43,955 nucleotides of DNA from Idiomarina aquatica (GTDB lineage: Bacteria > Pseudomonadota > Gammaproteobacteria > Enterobacterales > Alteromonadaceae). The stretch lies in assembly GCF_004362895.1 (NCBI RefSeq), contig NZ_SNXI01000020.1:1-43955 (forward strand). The letters are read 5' to 3'. A program made the translations under genes and the position numbers. Shown one piece after another: positions 36,241 through 43,955 of the stretch. Position 1 is the first letter of the stretch; every line of letters begins with the position of its first letter. The notes beneath the pieces are model-generated. The model ran no database searches, had not been told where the DNA came from, and worked only from the letters and a program-made list of their open reading frames with translations.

Positions 36241-36316
36241 GCCCGGATAGCTCAGTCGGTAGAGCAGAGGATTGAAAATCCTCGTGTCGGTGGTTCGATT
36301 CCGCCTCCGGGCACCA
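36241..36316 (+). tRNA. tRNA-Phe(GAA)
   Basis: Complete 76-nt cloverleaf with encoded CCA. The acceptor stem is GCCCGGA/TCCGGGC, the anticodon stem GAGGA/TCCTC, the loop TTGAAAA at 36272-36278 with anticodon GAA at 36274-36276, and the T-loop TTCGATT. It has its own promoter and terminator. A partial copy of its 3' part lies at 37673-37746. Confidence 0.98.
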
Positions 36317-36347
36317 CTATTCAGAAAAAGCCCTGCACTTTGTGCGG
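36272..36347 (+). repeat. Direct repeat, copy 1 (tRNA-Phe 3' part plus terminator), putative att site
   Basis: This segment begins exactly at the first base of the tRNA-Phe anticodon loop and runs through the 3' end into the terminator stem. It recurs at 37673-37746 in the same orientation with one substitution and one 2-nt deletion. Tyrosine-integrase attachment sites in tRNA genes commonly start at the anticodon loop, so this is read as the attachment site that kept the tRNA intact. Confidence 0.85.
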
Positions 36348-36356
36348 GGCTTTTTT
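36325..36356 (+). terminator. Rho-independent terminator of tRNA-Phe
   Basis: A GC-rich stem (GCCCTGCAC / GTGCGGGGC with one T-G pair, 3-nt loop TTT) is preceded by five A and followed by six T, starting 9 nt after the tRNA 3' end. Confidence 0.9.
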
Positions 36357-37672
36357 AGTTTCTGAACATCGGATGTAACACACTTAGTCACACAGTTCAG
36401 TAACTTGGCATTACCTCTACCCTCATAAAAAATCGTTTTGCCAAAGCCACGTCATTGGAGCCGCGATGCAGTTTTCAGTCTTTAGTGGCAGTGCGTTATT
36501 GCCGCAATAGAGCAATACGCCCCCTTTAAAGCTTTTACCGGCTTGCGCAGCCAACCGTTTTAGTCCTTCACCATCTTTGGCTTGAATGCTGGCTGCTTTT
36601 TTTACTTCAATGCCATAAATATCGCGGCCTTGTTCAAGCACCAAGTCGACTTCGATCTTGTCTTTATCTCGGTAATGGCTGAGTCGAATAGGCTCCTCTA
36701 ACCATTCCGCTTGAGTGCGAATTTGTTGAATGGTAAAGCTTTCCAGCAATGGGCCAAAGTCGGAAGAATAATCATGCCATTCGGCAGGTTTTAAATTATT
36801 CATAAAGGCGGCCAAGCCACTATCAATTAAATGCAGTTTGGGGGCTTTTACCAACCGTTTGGCTTGATTGCTATGCCATGCAGGTAAGCGATAAACCAAG
36901 AACAAATGCTCCAATATACTAATGTATTTTTCAGCCGTTTCGCGACGCATTTTAAGATCAGTTGCGATGCTGCTGGTATTAAGTAAATTACCTGTACGTA
37001 AAGCTAGCAATTCGGCTAAGCGCAGTAGCTCGTCCTCGTCGCGTATATTGGCAATGTCTTTCACATCGTTCTGAATAATAGTTTGCAGGTATTGCCGGTA
37101 CCATTGCCGTGCTCGTGAAGCAGAGCGAGTTAACGGTTCTGGGTAACCGCCCTGACATACACGCTCTGCTACCCCAAGAGTTCCTGCTGAGCTTGAGTGA
37201 TTCTGGGCTTGAGTTTGCCACTGAACAATGCCTCTAAAAAGGCGGGCTTGTTTTGCTCTTTCTCTAATTCGGCCAGTGGGTGTAAATGTAAGATCTCCAC
37301 ACGGCCTGCTAGCGACTCTTTCACCTTAGGTAGTAGCAATAGGTTCGCAGAGCCAGTGAGAAGAAACCTCCCTGGTTGTCGGTTGCGATCGACTTCAGCT
37401 TTTATCGCCAGTATCAATTCCGGCACCCTTTGAATTTCATCAAGCGTTACCTGTTCTGGCAGGCTTTGAATAAAGCCGGTTGGGTCTTGTTGAGCAGCTG
37501 TTAGGATGGCATGGTCGTCAAACGTCAAGTAGTGACGATCCGACGCGACCTGATGGCATAAAGTCGACTTCCCCACCTGGCGCGGTCCTAACACACAGAC
37601 GACGGGTGTGTCGACCAAATACCGGTTTTGACAGCGTCTATTTGACTATTATAAGTGCGGCTACTTGCCTAT
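36348..37672. mobile_element. Putative 1.3-kb tRNA-Phe-targeted insertion carrying one DUF4143 ATPase
   Basis: The DNA between the two direct repeats holds only the broken DUF4143 ATPase gene and about 120 bp of flanking sequence. There is no integrase, excisionase or transposase. The repeat starting at the anticodon loop suggests site-specific integration. The absent integrase suggests a decayed or non-autonomous element. A tandem tRNA duplication followed by deletion is an alternative. Confidence 0.6.
36423..37618 (-). pseudogene. AAA ATPase with DUF4143 domain (COG1373-like), frameshifted
   Basis: Upstream part (37169-37618): P-loop VLGPRQVGKSTL and the Walker B-like segment TLDEIQRVPEL. 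Downstream part (36423 to about 37171): the DUF4143 region with a nuclease-like segment near the C-terminus (EVDLVLEQG...IYGIEVKKA). The frames join after codons reading ...QQELLG. Here TAG follows a run of four G (37169-37175), and one extra G would restore VAERVCQGGYPEPL and the full protein. No ATG begins the upstream part, only TTG 37618 or the next GTG. The usual short N-terminus before DTPVV is not evident, so the 5' end may also be truncated. The family function is poorly defined. It is the only gene between the two tRNA-Phe repeats. A sequencing error in the G run is possible. Confidence 0.85.
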
Positions 37673-37746
37673 TTGAAAATCCTCGTGTCGGTGGTTCGAT
37701 TCCGCCTCCGCACCACTATTCAGAAAAAGCCCTGCACTTTATGCGG
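37673..37746 (+). repeat. Direct repeat, copy 2 (partial tRNA-Phe 3' remnant), putative att site
   Basis: 74-bp imperfect copy of 36272-36347. It carries the anticodon loop, T-arm and CCA region, then the start of the terminator, but lacks two G of the acceptor stem and has one G-to-A change. No 5' half of a tRNA precedes it, so it is not a functional gene. The truncated terminator stem runs into seven T. Confidence 0.85.
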
Positions 37747-37803
37747 TTTTTTTGCACGTATCCGATGCGTGCCAATCAAATCTCTACCAATGTAAAAATT
37801 AAC

Positions 37804-37829
37804 AAGCACGCCCAATAAAGAGCGTGCTT
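37804..37829 (-). terminator. Rho-independent terminator of the czc operon
   Basis: Read on the minus strand, arms AAGCACGC and GCGTGCTT (8 bp, 37822-37829 and 37804-37811) with a 10-nt loop are followed by a T-rich tract. It lies 12 bp beyond the czcA stop. Confidence 0.8.
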
Positions 37830-37840
37830 AAATTTTCAAC

Positions 37841-40800
37841 TTATTCTACACGGGGTCTCTTAAAGCGCTGCACTGTGTAGTACAACGCTGGCAGCACCAC
37901 CAAAGTCAATAATGTCGACGAGACAATGCCGCCGATTACCACAGTAGCCAGTGGTCGCTGTACCTCAGCGCCGACACCGGTATTAAATGCCATAGGGACA
38001 AAGCCCAGGCTAGCTACAAGAGCAGTCATCAGTACAGGTCTTAACCGTTGTTGCGCGCCTTCAAACACCGCATCTTTCAACGGCAGTCCGTCGCGCAGCA
38101 GTTGCCGTATGAATGTCAGCATGACCACGCCGTTCAAAACCGCCACGCCCGACAGTGCAATGAAGCCGACTGCAGCGGAAATTGATAGCGGCATATCACG
38201 CAGCGCTAATGCGAATATCCCGCCGGTCAGCCCTAAGGGAACGCCTGTGAATATGACGAGTGCACTGCTCAGCGAATTAAACGCACTGTATAGCAGGCCA
38301 ATAATTAATAGCAGCGCTAATGGCACAACCAAACTCAACCGTTGGGAAGCTGATTGCAGCTGTTCAAAGGTACCGTCGTAGTTAACCCAATAACCTGCTG
38401 GCAAATCAACGTCAGTCGTTAGCGCATCCTGAACATCTGCCACAAAAGAGCCCAAATCACGATCTTCAACATTCGCACTCACAATAACATTGCGTTTGCT
38501 GCTTTCCCGATTGATTTGGTTTGGTCCGCTATTCAAGCTTAATTCGGCGACCTCGCCTAACGGCACATAGCTTAGCTCTGGGTTACTAGCTGAGACGTCT
38601 ATCGGCAGTGATTTAAGCTGCTCAATACTCTTACGCCATTCTTTGTCGAGACGTACCATGAGTTTGAAGCGTTTATCCCCCTCGTAAATAATCCCTGACT
38701 GAACGCCGCCAACCGCTGCTTGAACTGCCCGTTGCACATCAGCCACTGTTAGGCCTAATAACGCTAAATGATCACGCTTAGGTATCACTGAGAGTGTCGA
38801 TAAACCGGTCATTTGTTCAACCCGAACATCAGCAGCGCCATCAACGGTGCGAATGACTACCGCGGCTGAGTCGCCTAACCGTTTAAGCGTTTGCAAGTCA
38901 TCGCCATAAATACGAACCCCCAAGTCAGCTCGAACGCCTGCAATAAGTTCGTTAAACCGCATTTCAATCGGTTGAGTGAACTCGTACTTATTACCGGGAA
39001 GCTCTTGCACAGCAGTTCGTATTTCAGCAACCAGTTGCTCTTTGGTTTTTTCTGGGTTTAGCCAGTCCTCACGCTCCTTTAAAATAATAATGGTATCAGC
39101 GACGCTCGGTGGCATAGGGTCGGTCGCAACATCCGGGGTACCAATTTTTGAGAATACCAGTTTAACTTCGTCAAAGCGTGACACCACAGACTCGACATCT
39201 TTTTGCATTGCTATAGACTGCTGCAAGCCAGTCCCCGGAATGCGCAAGGCTTGCATGGCAATATCGCCTTCATCAAGCTGTGGCAAAAACTCAGTTCCCA
39301 TGCGACTCGCCTGAAACATTGATACCGCAAACAGCCCAAAGCCAAGCAAAATAATGACAACTGGAAGCTTCAGTGTTTGCCGTAAAACCGGCTGATACAC
39401 TTTGCGGGCGGCTCGCATTATTCGGTTTTCACCGTGCTTAATATTGCCACGGACAAATATTGCAATAGCAGCGGGTACAAAGGTAACGCTGAAAATCAGA
39501 GCCCCTAAAAGCGCGGCTACGACAGTAAACGCCATGGGATGAAACATTTTGCCTTCAACACCACTTAACGCAAATATGGGCAAGTACACCAGCATAATGA
39601 TAAGCACACCAAATACCGCAGGGTTAAATACCTCACGAGTACTATGGGTTACTTCAATTAAGCGCTCTTTAGTGGTAAGTACCCGGCCTAAGCGTTGCTG
39701 TGCAATTCCAAGCCGTCGCAAAGCGTTTTCAACCACAATGACCGCACCATCGACGATAATACCAAAATCAATTGCGCCCAGGCTCATTAAATTACCAGAC
39801 ACCTTGTTGGCGACCATGCCGCTTACCGCAAACAGCATACTCAAGGGAATAACGCACGCCGTAATCAGTGCTGCACGGACATTTCCAAGCAGAATGAAAA
39901 GCACCACAATAACCAGCACCGCACCTTCAAACAGGTTTTTCTCGACCGTTGCAATAGTTTTATCAACGAGAGAAGTACGGTTATACACCGTTTCAATCAC
40001 CACCCCGTCTGGCAAGCTTCGTTGCACCTCCTCAATTTTATTGGCGACATTCTGTGCAACGATGCGACTGTTTTCGCCAATAAGCATCATGGCCGTGCCC
40101 AATACCACCTCGCTCTCGCCCGAGGTTGAAGCGCCAGTGCGTAATTGTTCTCCCAGTTTGACCTCAGCCACGTCACTCACGCGCACCGGTGCATCATCAC
40201 GTTTTGTCACGACCACATCACGAATATCGTCAAGTGTCTTAAGCTGTCCAGGCGAACGCACCAACCATTGCTCACCATTTTTCTCGATATAACCGGCACC
40301 AGCGTTTCTATTGTTAAGATCCAATGCTGCCAAAAGGTCCTGCATGGTCACTTTATAGGCCAGCATACGACCGGGGATGGGAGCCACCTGGTATTGCTTT
40401 TCATAACCCCCCACACTATTAATCTCGGTAACACCGGGCACCTTGACCAGTTGCGGCTTAATGATCCAATCCTGGATGGTACGCAACTGCTCGGGCGTAT
40501 ACGCCTCGCCATCGGCATTGGTAGCCCCCTCTTTCGCGCGTACTACATAATTAACAATTTCACCAAGGCCGGAGGCTATTGGCCCCATCGTCGGCTCGAT
40601 ACCGTCGGGTACTTCTCCCCTTACCTTTTGCAATCGCTCACTGATTTGCTGTCTAGCCCAGTAAATATCGGTGCCCTCTTCAAACACCACGGTAACTTGC
40701 GACAACCCATAGCGTGAGATCGAGCGGGTGTAGTCCAGCTTTGGTAAACCTGCCATCGCGGTTTCCACCGGATAAGAAATACGTTGTTCGGTTTCTAATG

Positions 40801-40972
40801 GCGAATAGCCTGGCGCTTCTGAATTTATCTGTACCTGAACATTGGTAATATCCGGCACAGCATCGATGGGTAGCTTTAATGTGCTATAAACGCCCGCAGC
40901 TGCTACTAACAAGGTTGCGGCAAGCACCAGCCATCGACGATCAACAGCAAAGCGAATGAGTGCATCTATCAT
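37841..40972 (-). CDS. czcA: Heavy-metal efflux RND transporter, CzcA type
   Basis: Proton-driven inner-membrane pump exporting divalent metal ions, probably Zn/Co/Cd, through a trans-envelope complex. The 1043-aa length matches HME-RND pumps. Membrane helix 4 carries DFGIIVDGAVIVVEN, with Asp402, Asp408 and Glu415 at the same numbers as the proton-relay residues of Cupriavidus CzcA. This pattern separates Zn/Co/Cd pumps from monovalent-metal CusA-like ones. Two large periplasmic domains lie at about 35-340 and 555-865. It is the last gene of the czcC-czcB-czcA operon, 12 bp after czcB. Exact metal specificity is inferred. Confidence 0.93.
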   Translation of the reverse strand: MIDALIRFAVDRRWLVLAATLLVAAAGVYSTLKLPIDAVPDITNVQVQINSEAPGYSPLETEQRISYPVETAMAGLPKLDYTRSISRYGLSQVTVVFEEGTDIYWARQQISERLQKVRGEVPDGIEPTMGPIASGLGEIVNYVVRAKEGATNADGEAYTPEQLRTIQDWIIKPQLVKVPGVTEINSVGGYEKQYQVAPIPGRMLAYKVTMQDLLAALDLNNRNAGAGYIEKNGEQWLVRSPGQLKTLDDIRDVVVTKRDDAPVRVSDVAEVKLGEQLRTGASTSGESEVVLGTAMMLIGENSRIVAQNVANKIEEVQRSLPDGVVIETVYNRTSLVDKTIATVEKNLFEGAVLVIVVLFILLGNVRAALITACVIPLSMLFAVSGMVANKVSGNLMSLGAIDFGIIVDGAVIVVENALRRLGIAQQRLGRVLTTKERLIEVTHSTREVFNPAVFGVLIIMLVYLPIFALSGVEGKMFHPMAFTVVAALLGALIFSVTFVPAAIAIFVRGNIKHGENRIMRAARKVYQPVLRQTLKLPVVIILLGFGLFAVSMFQASRMGTEFLPQLDEGDIAMQALRIPGTGLQQSIAMQKDVESVVSRFDEVKLVFSKIGTPDVATDPMPPSVADTIIILKEREDWLNPEKTKEQLVAEIRTAVQELPGNKYEFTQPIEMRFNELIAGVRADLGVRIYGDDLQTLKRLGDSAAVVIRTVDGAADVRVEQMTGLSTLSVIPKRDHLALLGLTVADVQRAVQAAVGGVQSGIIYEGDKRFKLMVRLDKEWRKSIEQLKSLPIDVSASNPELSYVPLGEVAELSLNSGPNQINRESSKRNVIVSANVEDRDLGSFVADVQDALTTDVDLPAGYWVNYDGTFEQLQSASQRLSLVVPLALLLIIGLLYSAFNSLSSALVIFTGVPLGLTGGIFALALRDMPLSISAAVGFIALSGVAVLNGVVMLTFIRQLLRDGLPLKDAVFEGAQQRLRPVLMTALVASLGFVPMAFNTGVGAEVQRPLATVVIGGIVSSTLLTLVVLPALYYTVQRFKRPRVE

Positions 40973-40984
40973 TGTTTACTCTCC

Positions 40985-41887
40985 CTAATGGCTGTGGCCT
41001 GCGCCTTGTTTTAGAATGTCAGCCTTTATCAAGTAGCTGTTTTCAACGACATAACTTTCGCCATTCTCAATACCCGATAACACCTCGGTGTATTCACCGT
41101 CAGTTCGGCCTAACTCAACTTCCCTGGCTTCGAAACGATTACCCTCTTTAATAAAAACAACGGGGTTATCTTCTAAACGTTGAACAGCATCATTGTTTAT
41201 CGCCAAGCTCGCGTTAAAGCTGTCTGTAACGACATCCGCTTTTACGTGCATTCCCGGTCGCCAATGCCCCGACTGATTGGGCAACTCGATAAGTGCGCGT
41301 GCAATATGTCCGCCAGTCATTTGTGGCGAGATATAAGACACAGTTCCTTCGACGGTTTTATGATGATGCAAGTCGTACACATAGGTCGTTTGCTCTTCTT
41401 CTAACGACTCAATGTTCTCCGGGAACGCTGAAAGCTCTACCCAGACCGATGATGGATCCAGGACTTCAAATAATGGCTTTTGCTCAACCACTTCACCAAC
41501 ATTGGTAAAACGTGCAGTTACCTCTCCGCTAATTGGGCTGATGACTTCAAATGCCGTGCCTGTCGTAACATTCTCAACAACAGCCAGAGTTTGCCCGGCT
41601 TTTATGGCATCGCCGATATTGGCCTTTAGTGACGTAACAATACCTTTGTACTTCGCTCCGATATGCACAATATTGTTATTATTGGGGGCTATTACACCGA
41701 AAATTGTTTGCTTTACTCGAATGCTTTGAGCGCTCGCTGTTGCCAACGTTAATTTCGCGTTTTCTATTGCTGCATCACTTAAATTGGTATGGGGTGCTTC
41801 ATGCTCTTCGTGTTTTTTCTCATAAGCCAATACGGGCAGTGAAAAACTGGCAATGCAGATAATTGTAATCAATGTGTTGAGTTTCAT
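40985..41887 (-). CDS. czcB: RND efflux periplasmic adaptor, CzcB type
   Basis: Membrane-fusion protein linking CzcA to the outer-membrane channel. The 300-aa product has a signal peptide (cut near VLA-Y at 21). His-rich metal-binding patches lie at the N-terminus (KKHEEHEAPH), in the middle (DLHHHK) and at the extreme C-terminus (GHSH). Lipoyl/barrel-sandwich segments are GDAIKAGQTLAVVEN and SPISGEVTARF. It is shorter than many CzcB proteins. Its start overlaps the czcC stop by 4 bp. Confidence 0.92.
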   Translation of the reverse strand: MKLNTLITIICIASFSLPVLAYEKKHEEHEAPHTNLSDAAIENAKLTLATASAQSIRVKQTIFGVIAPNNNNIVHIGAKYKGIVTSLKANIGDAIKAGQTLAVVENVTTGTAFEVISPISGEVTARFTNVGEVVEQKPLFEVLDPSSVWVELSAFPENIESLEEEQTTYVYDLHHHKTVEGTVSYISPQMTGGHIARALIELPNQSGHWRPGMHVKADVVTDSFNASLAINNDAVQRLEDNPVVFIKEGNRFEAREVELGRTDGEYTEVLSGIENGESYVVENSYLIKADILKQGAGHSH

Positions 41888-43131
41888 TGTTGTACTCCTA
41901 AAAACGGCTGTCCGGTCATGCGCTCTAATTCGATGATGTCGCTGTAAATCGCATGTTGACGGGAGATTTTTTCATACTCGATTTTTGCTAACTCTGTTTG
42001 CGCGTCTAACACTTGCAACAAAGAGTGCGTTCCGCGTGCGTAACCCTGTTGAGTTTTTTCAAGTAATTGCTCAGATAATGGCATCAGTCGCTGATTTATC
42101 TTTTGCAGATAACTTTGGTGAGTTTGCAAACTGTGCACTAGCGATAAAGCCAGTGATTTTAGTTGCTGCCGAACCTGTTTTTGCTGCGCCAGGATAGACT
42201 GATGCAGTAATCGGCTTTGTTTTATGCGACCGACGTTAGGGTCAGTGAACTGCAATGGCATCGATGCCTGGACGATTAAACCTACATCATCGAACTCATT
42301 ATTGTAGCGAGCCCCGACACCAACGGTAATATCCGACTTTGAGTCCGCTGCTAACGCTCTGGCTTGCGCTTGTAGAAGTTGCTCAGAGTCCAGTAAACGC
42401 AAATACTCCGGCGCCCGATTAACAGCCGATAACACGTTGGCTTTTTCCGGGAGGCTTAGCGGAAAAGTAAAGTCTCCAGAGACGCGCGTAAAATTGAGCT
42501 CGCCTGCCCACATTGAAGCCAGTTCAGCTTGTTGCTTTTTCAGTTTACCGTTCAACTCGTCAGAGAAAGCGTATTGGCGCTCTAACTGTAATTTAATGCG
42601 AATAACCTCGGATTTAGGCACCGCGCCAGCTTCTACACGCTCCTGTGCCACTTTTATCAGTCGCTCAGTTCGCTGAATTTGACGCTCGCTGGTATGCGCG
42701 ACTTGCTGAAGTTTTAAAATGTCATAGAAACGCTGTGTGGTTTCTGCCAAAACCTCAATTTGACGATACTCAAACTCTGCTCGCTGAGCTTTCTCTTTTT
42801 CGGTTGCAGCTTTAACTCGTAACTGCCGTTTGTCCCCTAACTCTATGAGCTGAGAAAAGGATACGGTCAATTGTGAGTTACTGATACCTTCTAGCCGTCC
42901 TGAGCCGGCAAAGTTTTCTATTTCCGCAGATACCCTTGGGTTCGCTGAAAACTCAGCCTGCTCTATCAGTGCTCCTGCAGCTCGTATTTTATAATCATAC
43001 TCCAGTAACTCAGGGTTATTCTTGATCGTTTTTTGTAACGCTTCTTTCAGCTTTAAATCTGTCGTCGCAGCCGTCGCCACAGGCACTAGCGCACCTAAGC
43101 AAAAGGCTGCCACGAAGTATAAATACTTCAT
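41884..43131 (-). CDS. czcC: Outer-membrane efflux channel, CzcC/TolC family
   Basis: Outer-membrane channel subunit of the metal efflux complex. The 415-aa protein has a signal peptide (about 1-22, ending VATAA) and two repeated outer-membrane-efflux units with long helices. The segments YDILKLQQ and GYARGTHSLLQVLDAQTELA are typical. It is the first of the three efflux genes and is coupled to czcB. Confidence 0.92.
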   Translation of the reverse strand: MKYLYFVAAFCLGALVPVATAATTDLKLKEALQKTIKNNPELLEYDYKIRAAGALIEQAEFSANPRVSAEIENFAGSGRLEGISNSQLTVSFSQLIELGDKRQLRVKAATEKEKAQRAEFEYRQIEVLAETTQRFYDILKLQQVAHTSERQIQRTERLIKVAQERVEAGAVPKSEVIRIKLQLERQYAFSDELNGKLKKQQAELASMWAGELNFTRVSGDFTFPLSLPEKANVLSAVNRAPEYLRLLDSEQLLQAQARALAADSKSDITVGVGARYNNEFDDVGLIVQASMPLQFTDPNVGRIKQSRLLHQSILAQQKQVRQQLKSLALSLVHSLQTHQSYLQKINQRLMPLSEQLLEKTQQGYARGTHSLLQVLDAQTELAKIEYEKISRQHAIYSDIIELERMTGQPFLGVQQ

Positions 43132-43178
43132 GTTGCTTCTCCATTAACTTATAGGTTTTAAAAAGTCTAAGTTAACGG

Positions 43179-43502
43179 TTACGCGTTTGGTGGAGGTACA
43201 GGGGGTTGGTGAGTCAGGCTTTGGTCAAAACCTACCGAGTTTGAGTTGGGTGCCAAAATAACAGGCACGGCTGAAATTAAGAGGTTATAACCAGTAATGC
43301 AACTAATATGAGGTTGTGTTTGTTGTTTACTATCATATATTGATTTATTTAAGTCTTGATTTTCACGCTCAATTTCTAAGACTAAGTCATACGCAACTCC
43401 TGCACTCTTTATTGAAGACTGACTGAAAGTACCAGCCACAGGAGCACAGGCAAAAGAGCTATGAATGAGCACAGTCAGTATTAAAAACCAAGATATTTTC
43501 AT
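43179..43502 (-). CDS. Small secreted hypothetical protein in czcI position
   Basis: 107-aa protein with a clear signal peptide (hydrophobic 4-18, then SSFACA). The mature part of about 85 residues has two cysteines at most, a hydrophobic stretch ISCITGYNLLISAVPVILAP, and a Pro-rich end (QPPVPPPNA). I cannot assign a family. Its position 47 bp before czcC, its length and its Pro-rich C-terminal end recall CzcI, the small periplasmic regulator/accessory protein that precedes czcCBA in Cupriavidus. It lacks the His-rich metal-binding segment of many CzcI proteins. A GGGG ribosome site lies 8 nt before the ATG. The gene is A/T-richer than its neighbours. Confidence 0.6.
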   Translation of the reverse strand: MKISWFLILTVLIHSSFACAPVAGTFSQSSIKSAGVAYDLVLEIERENQDLNKSIYDSKQQTQPHISCITGYNLLISAVPVILAPNSNSVGFDQSLTHQPPVPPPNA

Positions 43503-43577
43503 TCAATTACCCCACTCAATATAAATTCCTAATCCATCCAAAATAAGCTCGGCCATATTAATTATTATACTTACTAT

Positions 43578-43955
43578 TTACTTAGAACCCGGTAGATTCG
43601 GTATCATTGAGACCTGCAAGTTGCTTAACAGTAATAGGATAACTCCTAGGGTAATTGCAATATCGGCAATATTAAAAACTGGCAATTGCCACGTTTGCCA
43701 ACCTAGATGAAGGGAGTCGACAACATAGCCACGAAACAGTCGGTCAATGAGGTTCCCAACCGCCCCCCCAAGAATCAGCCCGTAGCTAATGCCATCCCGT
43801 TTACTTACTTTATTAAAGATCAACCTCGTTAAAGCCACAGACATTAGCAGAGCAACCCCAATAAAAAAGTAGCGCTGCCAGCCTCCACCATTCGCAAAAA
43901 GACTGAATGCGGCACCGGTGTTCCATAGGTGCACCCAGTTAAAGAACGGGGTCAC
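43578..43955 (-). CDS. lspA: Lipoprotein signal peptidase (LspA), partial at window edge
   Basis: Inner-membrane aspartyl protease that removes signal peptides from prolipoproteins. The 5' end lies beyond the window; the visible 125 residues start inside the protein (TPFFNWVHLWNTGAAFSLF) and reach the true C-terminus. The two catalytic aspartates are present in GNLIDRLFRGYVVDS and FNIADIAI (80 and 98 of the visible part). It precedes a metal-efflux operon and not ileS/fkpB neighbours. It is therefore probably a second, metal-resistance-associated lspA of the kind found with cadA/pbr-type determinants, and not the housekeeping copy. This is inferred from context. Confidence 0.9.
   Translation of the reverse strand: MTPFFNWVHLWNTGAAFSLFANGGGWQRYFFIGVALLMSVALTRLIFNKVSKRDGISYGLILGGAVGNLIDRLFRGYVVDSLHLGWQTWQLPVFNIADIAITLGVILLLLSNLQVSMIPNLPGSK

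Follow-up and report, generated by a model that had tools for sequence, protein, structure and literature searches.

The 1.4-kb unit that follows the anticodon-loop boundary of the tRNA-Phe gene in Idiomarina aquatica (36272-37672) is probably what decay has left of an integrative element, inserted into this gene at the anticodon loop by a tyrosine integrase. The window analysed, 43,955 nt in length, is the entire contig C20 of this genome (G000; 2.95 Mb in 63 contigs), and positions given without a contig name refer to it. The features of the locus are collected in Table 1.

Table 1. Features of the tRNA-Phe locus and the adjoining sequence in the window.
Feature	Position	Strand	Basis or remark
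tRNA-Phe (GAA), intact	36241..36316	+	ARAGORN; own-genome search
Repeat copy 1, 76 bp, from anticodon-loop base 32 of tRNA-Phe into the terminator	36272..36347	+	
Intact terminator hairpin of copy 1	36324..36356	+	-23.3 kcal/mol, z -6.3
Conserved post-terminator stretch with GTAACAC-like direct repeats	36357..36402	+	
DUF4143, C-terminal part of broken ATPase gene	36423..37064	-	Pfam PF13635, E=2.9e-43; tblastn
AAA_14, N-terminal part of broken ATPase gene, other frame	37169..37618	-	Pfam PF13173, E=3.9e-27; tblastn
Right edge of the unit, ending at copy 2	37627..37672	.	G002 has a similar stretch
Displaced 3' part of tRNA-Phe, repeat copy 2 (74 bp)	37673..37746	+	acceptor-stem deletion, damaged terminator
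Left end of metal-resistance island, cut by contig end	37804..43955	.	near-identity to G006

The tRNA-Phe gene is the only tRNA identified in the window by ARAGORN, and a search of the genome returned three matches to it, of which one is full length. The anticodon loop opens with tRNA position 32, which is 36272 in the window, and the block of identity begins exactly there, with 38 nt at 100% (36272-36309 and 37673-37710) and a further 44 nt at 91% (36311-36354 and 37710-37753) that is offset by 2 nt against the 38-nt block. The sequence-only reading of this locus had described direct repeats of 76 and 74 bp with this start, one substitution and a 2-nt deletion, and alignment of the copies confirms the description, the substitution being a G-to-A change. 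The distance from copy to copy is 1401 bp, below the 2-kb minimum of Islander. A chance origin of the repeat was rejected, as an exact 38-mer in 44 kb lies far beyond chance by simple arithmetic (not a shuffle-based estimate); the same 38-mer has no exact match in viral contigs. The GTAACAC-like direct repeats beyond the terminator of copy 1 are, judging by their pattern, possibly candidate integrase arm sites. Similar stretches occur after tRNA-Phe in G003, G011 and G017, and also after the distal tRNA-Phe fragment, described below, in G002, G003, G011 and G016.

The two copies have decayed unequally. The acceptor stem of copy 1 is intact, whereas in copy 2 a single G is left of the three at positions 69-71, and the hairpin has fallen to -8.4 kcal/mol (z -1.5), a loss of most of the terminator stability. 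The earlier reading had suggested looking for further 3' remnants of tRNA-Phe to the right of the window, and the own-genome search located a third fragment at C3:1368-1428; it begins in the T-loop, one G is missing from it, and its hairpin is preserved at -22.8 kcal/mol. The terminator sequence is common to all three fragments of the genome and is little changed. According to an excerpt of the published account of such islands, displaced tDNA fragments can carry small deletions 3 bp upstream of the discriminator, and damage is listed for 148 of 3919 islands (PMC4383910). The deletion in G69-G71 of copy 2 falls at the place given in that excerpt, which supports the decayed-element reading. The extension of the repeat into the terminator had been called unusual. 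Since everything downstream of a crossover is displaced, it is not odd in kind, and terminator-like hairpins follow both copies in the islands of G023 and G033 considered below; what does stand is that terminators as nearly identical as these are uncommon.

Between the copies lie the two parts of a broken ATPase gene and no integrase, as the sequence-only reading had proposed. By tblastn, both parts are matched, each in its own frame, by six homologue ORFs of 408-415 aa (38-57% identity), so that the AAA_14 and DUF4143 parts constitute one frameshifted gene, which occupies approximately 1.18 of the 1.40 kb. The alignments start at homologue residue 14-20, leaving the first 13-19 residues unmatched. 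Eight homologue ORFs were taken, with L120 (a neighbouring gene) and L105 (a shortened reading) excluded from the length range. Neither the ORFs nor the Pfam search revealed an integrase between the copies, the nine integrase-family matches of the genome all being located off C20, and no excisionase or integrase is linked to the unit. Searches with the DUF4143 protein gave matches in 15 of 394 genomes at the order level (E <= 1e-20) and in 5 of the 19 genus genomes (E <= 0.001), G000 included in each case; the two longest matches in the genus besides G000 are 42% identical and are found at other loci in G005 and G011. Four loci were returned from GTDB contigs, three from MAGs (43-45% over residues 1-209 of 213) and the fourth from Legionella tunisiensis (61% over 40 residues). 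ARAGORN, run over mostly about 1.5 kb per side and blind to fragments, placed no tRNA near any of the 22 DUF4143 loci scanned, out of 25, and no paper was found that joins DUF4143, tRNA and a genomic island.

Matches to the DNA of the unit were obtained in 11 of 295 family genomes, G000 included. Outside G000 they are pieces of at most 192 bases, so that no other full-length repeat-DUF4143-repeat unit, for which a search had been suggested, came to light in these 295 genomes. Two other species of the genus have retained parts of the unit at this locus. In G016, directly after the distal fragment, segments correspond to 36295-36512 (77%) and 37072-37180 (93%), and much of the middle of the unit and its right end are missing. 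G002 has retained the left flank together with a 51-nt stretch aligned to 37627-37677; the score of this match, 47, was reached by 0 of 5000 shuffles and is the highest among 8432 windows, the next unrelated one scoring 36. No copy 2 was detected in G002 after its TTGAA (844 of 1000 shuffles reach the score). Just the first 38-58 bases after the terminator are matched in G003, G011, G017 and, from another genus, G111, and pieces of 30-192 bases inside the gene in G108, G126, G193, G215 and G295. A comparison with relatives lacking the insert had been proposed by the sequence-only reading, and G006 and G015, which have no match to the unit, are such relatives; the precise absence of the insert cannot be read from them at the level of single bases, because the species differ in their flanks.

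The sequence that follows each fragment was compared by shuffling. After the remnant in G016 it is like the sequence that usually follows the terminator in the genus, with the score reached by 0 of 1000 shuffles for G014, 0 of 1000 for G008 and 1 of 1000 for G018 (121 of 1000 for G001), which is as an insertion between the tRNA end and the old downstream sequence predicts. The stretch after copy 2 in G000 bears a weak likeness to that of G018 and of G006 (7 of 1000 shuffles each), and seven other comparisons gave 59, 210, 293, 315, 347, 530 and 946 of 1000. The stretches after copy 1 and after copy 2 show no similarity to each other (530 of 1000). The position of the unit also varies: in G000 it stands between tRNA-Phe and the metal island, and in G016 and G002 its pieces are found beyond the distal fragment.

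The metal island to the right of copy 2, which is itself mobile DNA, was outside the view of the earlier reading. It contains an RND efflux gene at 37841-40972 (Pfam ACR_tran), followed by two more genes, to 43131, that look by eye like RND partners. The window from 37673 to 43954 aligns with G006 over 6296 columns at 98.2% identity, with unbroken identity from about 37804, and its right part is 96-98% identical to G003, G006, G008, G011 and G016 and 78% identical to G017. To the left of tRNA-Phe the backbone shares 75-90% identity with genus mates, and the right part as chromosomal backbone was thus ruled out. With ends 96-98% identical across species against about 80% for the backbone, the metal island appears from these identities to have spread recently by horizontal transfer. 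The sequence that the right end of C20 and the start of C3 each share with genus mates places the end of C20 inside the metal island and the start of C3 near its far end. The 600 bp preceding the C3 fragment are identical in G006 and G011, 99.8% identical in G001 and G018, and 94% identical in G016.

Distal fragments of the T-loop type are present in at least 10 of the 19 genus genomes (G000, G001, G002, G003, G006, G011, G013, G014, G016 and G018), the link being inferred for G000, G002 and G013, where fragment and tRNA lie on different contigs; weak partial matches to tRNA-Phe elsewhere, for example in G005 and G008, are outside this count. One acceptor-stem G is missing in nine of the ten fragments, and two in G011. 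Being independent of the host terminator, the one-G lesion may belong to the attP of the metal island. The distance from tRNA-Phe to the fragment is about 47 kb in G006 and G011, 44 kb in G003, 46 kb in G018, 38 kb in G016 and 62 kb in G001, and long collinear blocks connect the fetched island stretches of G006 with those of G003, G011, G008 and G016. In G016 an integrase with an Arm-DNA-bind_3 domain adjoins the tRNA; island cargo other than this gene and the RND gene was judged by eye. The label of ICE was dropped for the metal island, of which only a few proteins were scanned.

Comparison with the 18 genus mates identifies the interval between tRNA-Phe and pepQ as an island hotspot. G015 represents the island-free locus, consisting of tRNA-Phe, its terminator, less than 200 bp and pepQ; in G000 a pepQ-like gene (Peptidase_M24) is located at C3:7513-8775. 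In G006, G003, G011 and G017 the RND block lies within about 200 bp of tRNA-Phe and its terminator, and in the first three of these (L048, L051 and L054) the left end of the island follows the terminator without the integrase-bearing left arm of G016. The left arm of the G018 island is absent from the fetched stretches of G006, G003 and G011 and from G000, where it matches nothing but 24 nt of the tRNA end. A second terminator copy is seen about 790 bp to the right of the distal fragment in G018 (L063, 6311-7141) and likewise in G013 (L076), with a partial gene between the copies that resembles by eye a YagK/YfjJ-type gene of the G016 island. In L004, on contig C3 (1464-6269), a metallo-hydrolase gene and an arsenic-type cluster, both assigned by eye, are situated between the distal fragment and pepQ; homologues of these genes sit at other places in genus mates.

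The history that would account for the unit begins with an element placed into tRNA-Phe by a tyrosine integrase that had its crossover in the anticodon loop. The present 3' half of the gene (copy 1) and its terminator would then derive from the att site of the element, and the original 3' half would have been displaced to the right as copy 2. The integrase and most of the cargo would later have been lost, leaving one DUF4143 ATPase gene that was then frameshifted, while copy 2, no longer needed, would have decayed. We infer that the junction was made by an integrase and that the unit was once larger. The start of the identity block at position 32 and the contrast between an intact copy 1 and a damaged copy 2 argue for this reading, as do the unit pieces in G016 and both edges in G002 at the same locus, and the integrase-bearing islands of G023 and G033 with a similar boundary. 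Of the earlier description of the element as satellite-sized or strongly decayed, it is accordingly the second part that is retained, on the strength of the boundary, the damage, the frameshift, the traces in G016 and G002 and the islands of the two other genera; the first finds no support, as the gene is broken and the 295 family genomes gave no second full-length match.

Several observations point the other way. The unit has no linked integrase or excisionase, and a search of G000 for close relatives of the G023 integrase gave none; identity stops at base 32, when in G023 and G033 it runs into the 5' anticodon stem; a copy 2 was not detected in G002; and the likeness after copy 2 is weak. 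The near-identical terminators of G000 would fit duplication or gene conversion within the lineage better than a foreign attP. The location of the unit on opposite sides of the metal island in G000 and G016 demands an extra event, and either the unit entered G000 after the metal island or the metal island targeted copy 2 rather than the tRNA.

An unlikely alternative, which nevertheless deserves the most weight among those considered, is that the DUF4143 stretch was resident downstream of tRNA-Phe and that copy 2 is the left end of the metal island, brought to this place either because an older tRNA fragment served as the target of the island or because DNA of a strain in which tRNA, terminator and RND block are adjacent recombined illegitimately with the locus. 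Such strains exist, given the close RND blocks of G006, G003, G011 and G017; the unit pieces of G016 and G002 immediately follow the terminator of the distal fragment, towards the chromosome; and all three fragments of G000 share a little-changed terminator. Each route meets a difficulty, however. Illegitimate joining must hit the first base of the anticodon loop by chance, and integration at an older fragment presupposes an older displaced fragment, which is the preferred explanation again; moreover, the left arm of the G018 island was not found in G000.

It is highly improbable that the 3' region of tRNA-Phe was simply duplicated in tandem and that the copies then diverged. Short duplications do occur in the genus, since G009 carries a second copy, of about 65 nt, of the stretch from T-loop to terminator 108 bp downstream. 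This comes near to a downstream copy without any insert, a finding that the sequence-only reading had held would count against insertion, but the copy starts in the T-loop and not in the anticodon loop. The G009 copies (L060, reverse strand, from 1952 and 2060) enclose a perfect 16-nt palindrome, and G004 (L058) seems by eye to hold a decayed version of the same duplication. A tandem duplication should have repeated the post-terminator sequence too, yet this is unrelated in copies 1 and 2, and the explanation was rejected on that ground. Two full tandem tRNA-Phe genes in close relatives, which had likewise been named as evidence against insertion, were not seen: among the matches listed, the 18 genus mates have one full-length gene each. 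Several full tRNA-Phe genes are found in more distant families, such as in G059, G055 and G044. The slightest credence is given to a minimal non-autonomous cassette, that is, one DUF4143 gene between att sites moved in trans by a tRNA-Phe integrase. A single gene filling most of the unit would suit such a cassette, as would the pieces in G016 and G002 in another order relative to the metal island. Against it are the broken gene, the short pieces outside G000 with no second full-length copy, and the 22 scanned DUF4143 loci, of 25, at none of which ARAGORN, to which fragments are invisible, places a tRNA. Equally slim is the chance that a minimal cassette with its own tRNA terminator was retained as supplier of the working 3' half of the sole tRNA-Phe.

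Under the preferred reading of a decayed integrated element, the remnant is probably locked in, because loss of the unit by simple recombination would leave the sole full-length tRNA-Phe found with a damaged acceptor stem. The unit would thus illustrate how an old insertion may turn permanent: the host's original tRNA-Phe end appears to have decayed, and the single tRNA-Phe seems to depend on the end of a dead element. Most likely it is a decayed case of the well-known tRNA-integrated type of island, and as such an ordinary genomic fossil.

G023 and G033, which belong to two other genera of the family, show the anatomy that the ancestor of the unit is proposed to have had. Each has a full tRNA-Phe and a distal copy about 11.8 kb away that starts in the anticodon arm, with an integrase-family gene beside one end of the 12-kb island and, by eye, a terminator-like hairpin and T-run after both copies. 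These islands share with the G000 unit the tRNA, the anticodon-arm boundary and the hairpins; in contrast to it they carry the integrase-family gene and a full cargo, with no DUF4143 noted by eye among the listed ORFs. In them the identity extends by a few bases into the 5' anticodon stem, and the two terminators differ, whereas the G000 pair is nearly identical. The G023 integrase has weak matches in 3 of the 19 genus genomes (E 1e-4 to 5e-4). Proteins of 861 aa (ATPase-like) and 1061 aa (methylase-like) in these islands (L124 and L125) may, by eye, be defence genes. The G000 gene itself resembles the AAA_14-DUF4143 ATPases (PF13173 and PF13635) in domain order and over nearly its full length, and departs from them in being frameshifted and in missing its first 13-19 residues.

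A phage satellite has replication, packaging or regulatory genes of its own. The unit was not classed as one, the single broken ATPase gene being all that was recognised in it. Its closest counterpart is the class of Islander site A islands, with an anticodon-centred attP, in which a full tRNA is accompanied by a directly repeated and damaged 3' fragment displaced from the anticodon loop. The unit has the intact tRNA with a downstream 3' fragment in the same orientation, the anticodon-loop start, and relatives without the insert; it differs in its length of 1.4 kb, under the 2 kb required, and in containing no integrase gene in the interval, and is therefore at most a remnant and not a functional member of the class. 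The excerpt of PMC4383910 describes Islander filters that discard candidates shorter than 2 kb or without an integrase frame. Catalogues made in that way would miss short integrase-less remnants of this kind. The metal island of the genus, in G016 and others, is similar to the unit in its target gene and in a displaced fragment lacking one or two acceptor-stem bases, and is distinguished by a length of tens of kilobases, from 38 (G016) to 62 kb (G001), the T-loop start of its fragment and the integrase of G016. Two att classes, of the anticodon loop and of the T-loop, are stacked at this one tRNA gene.
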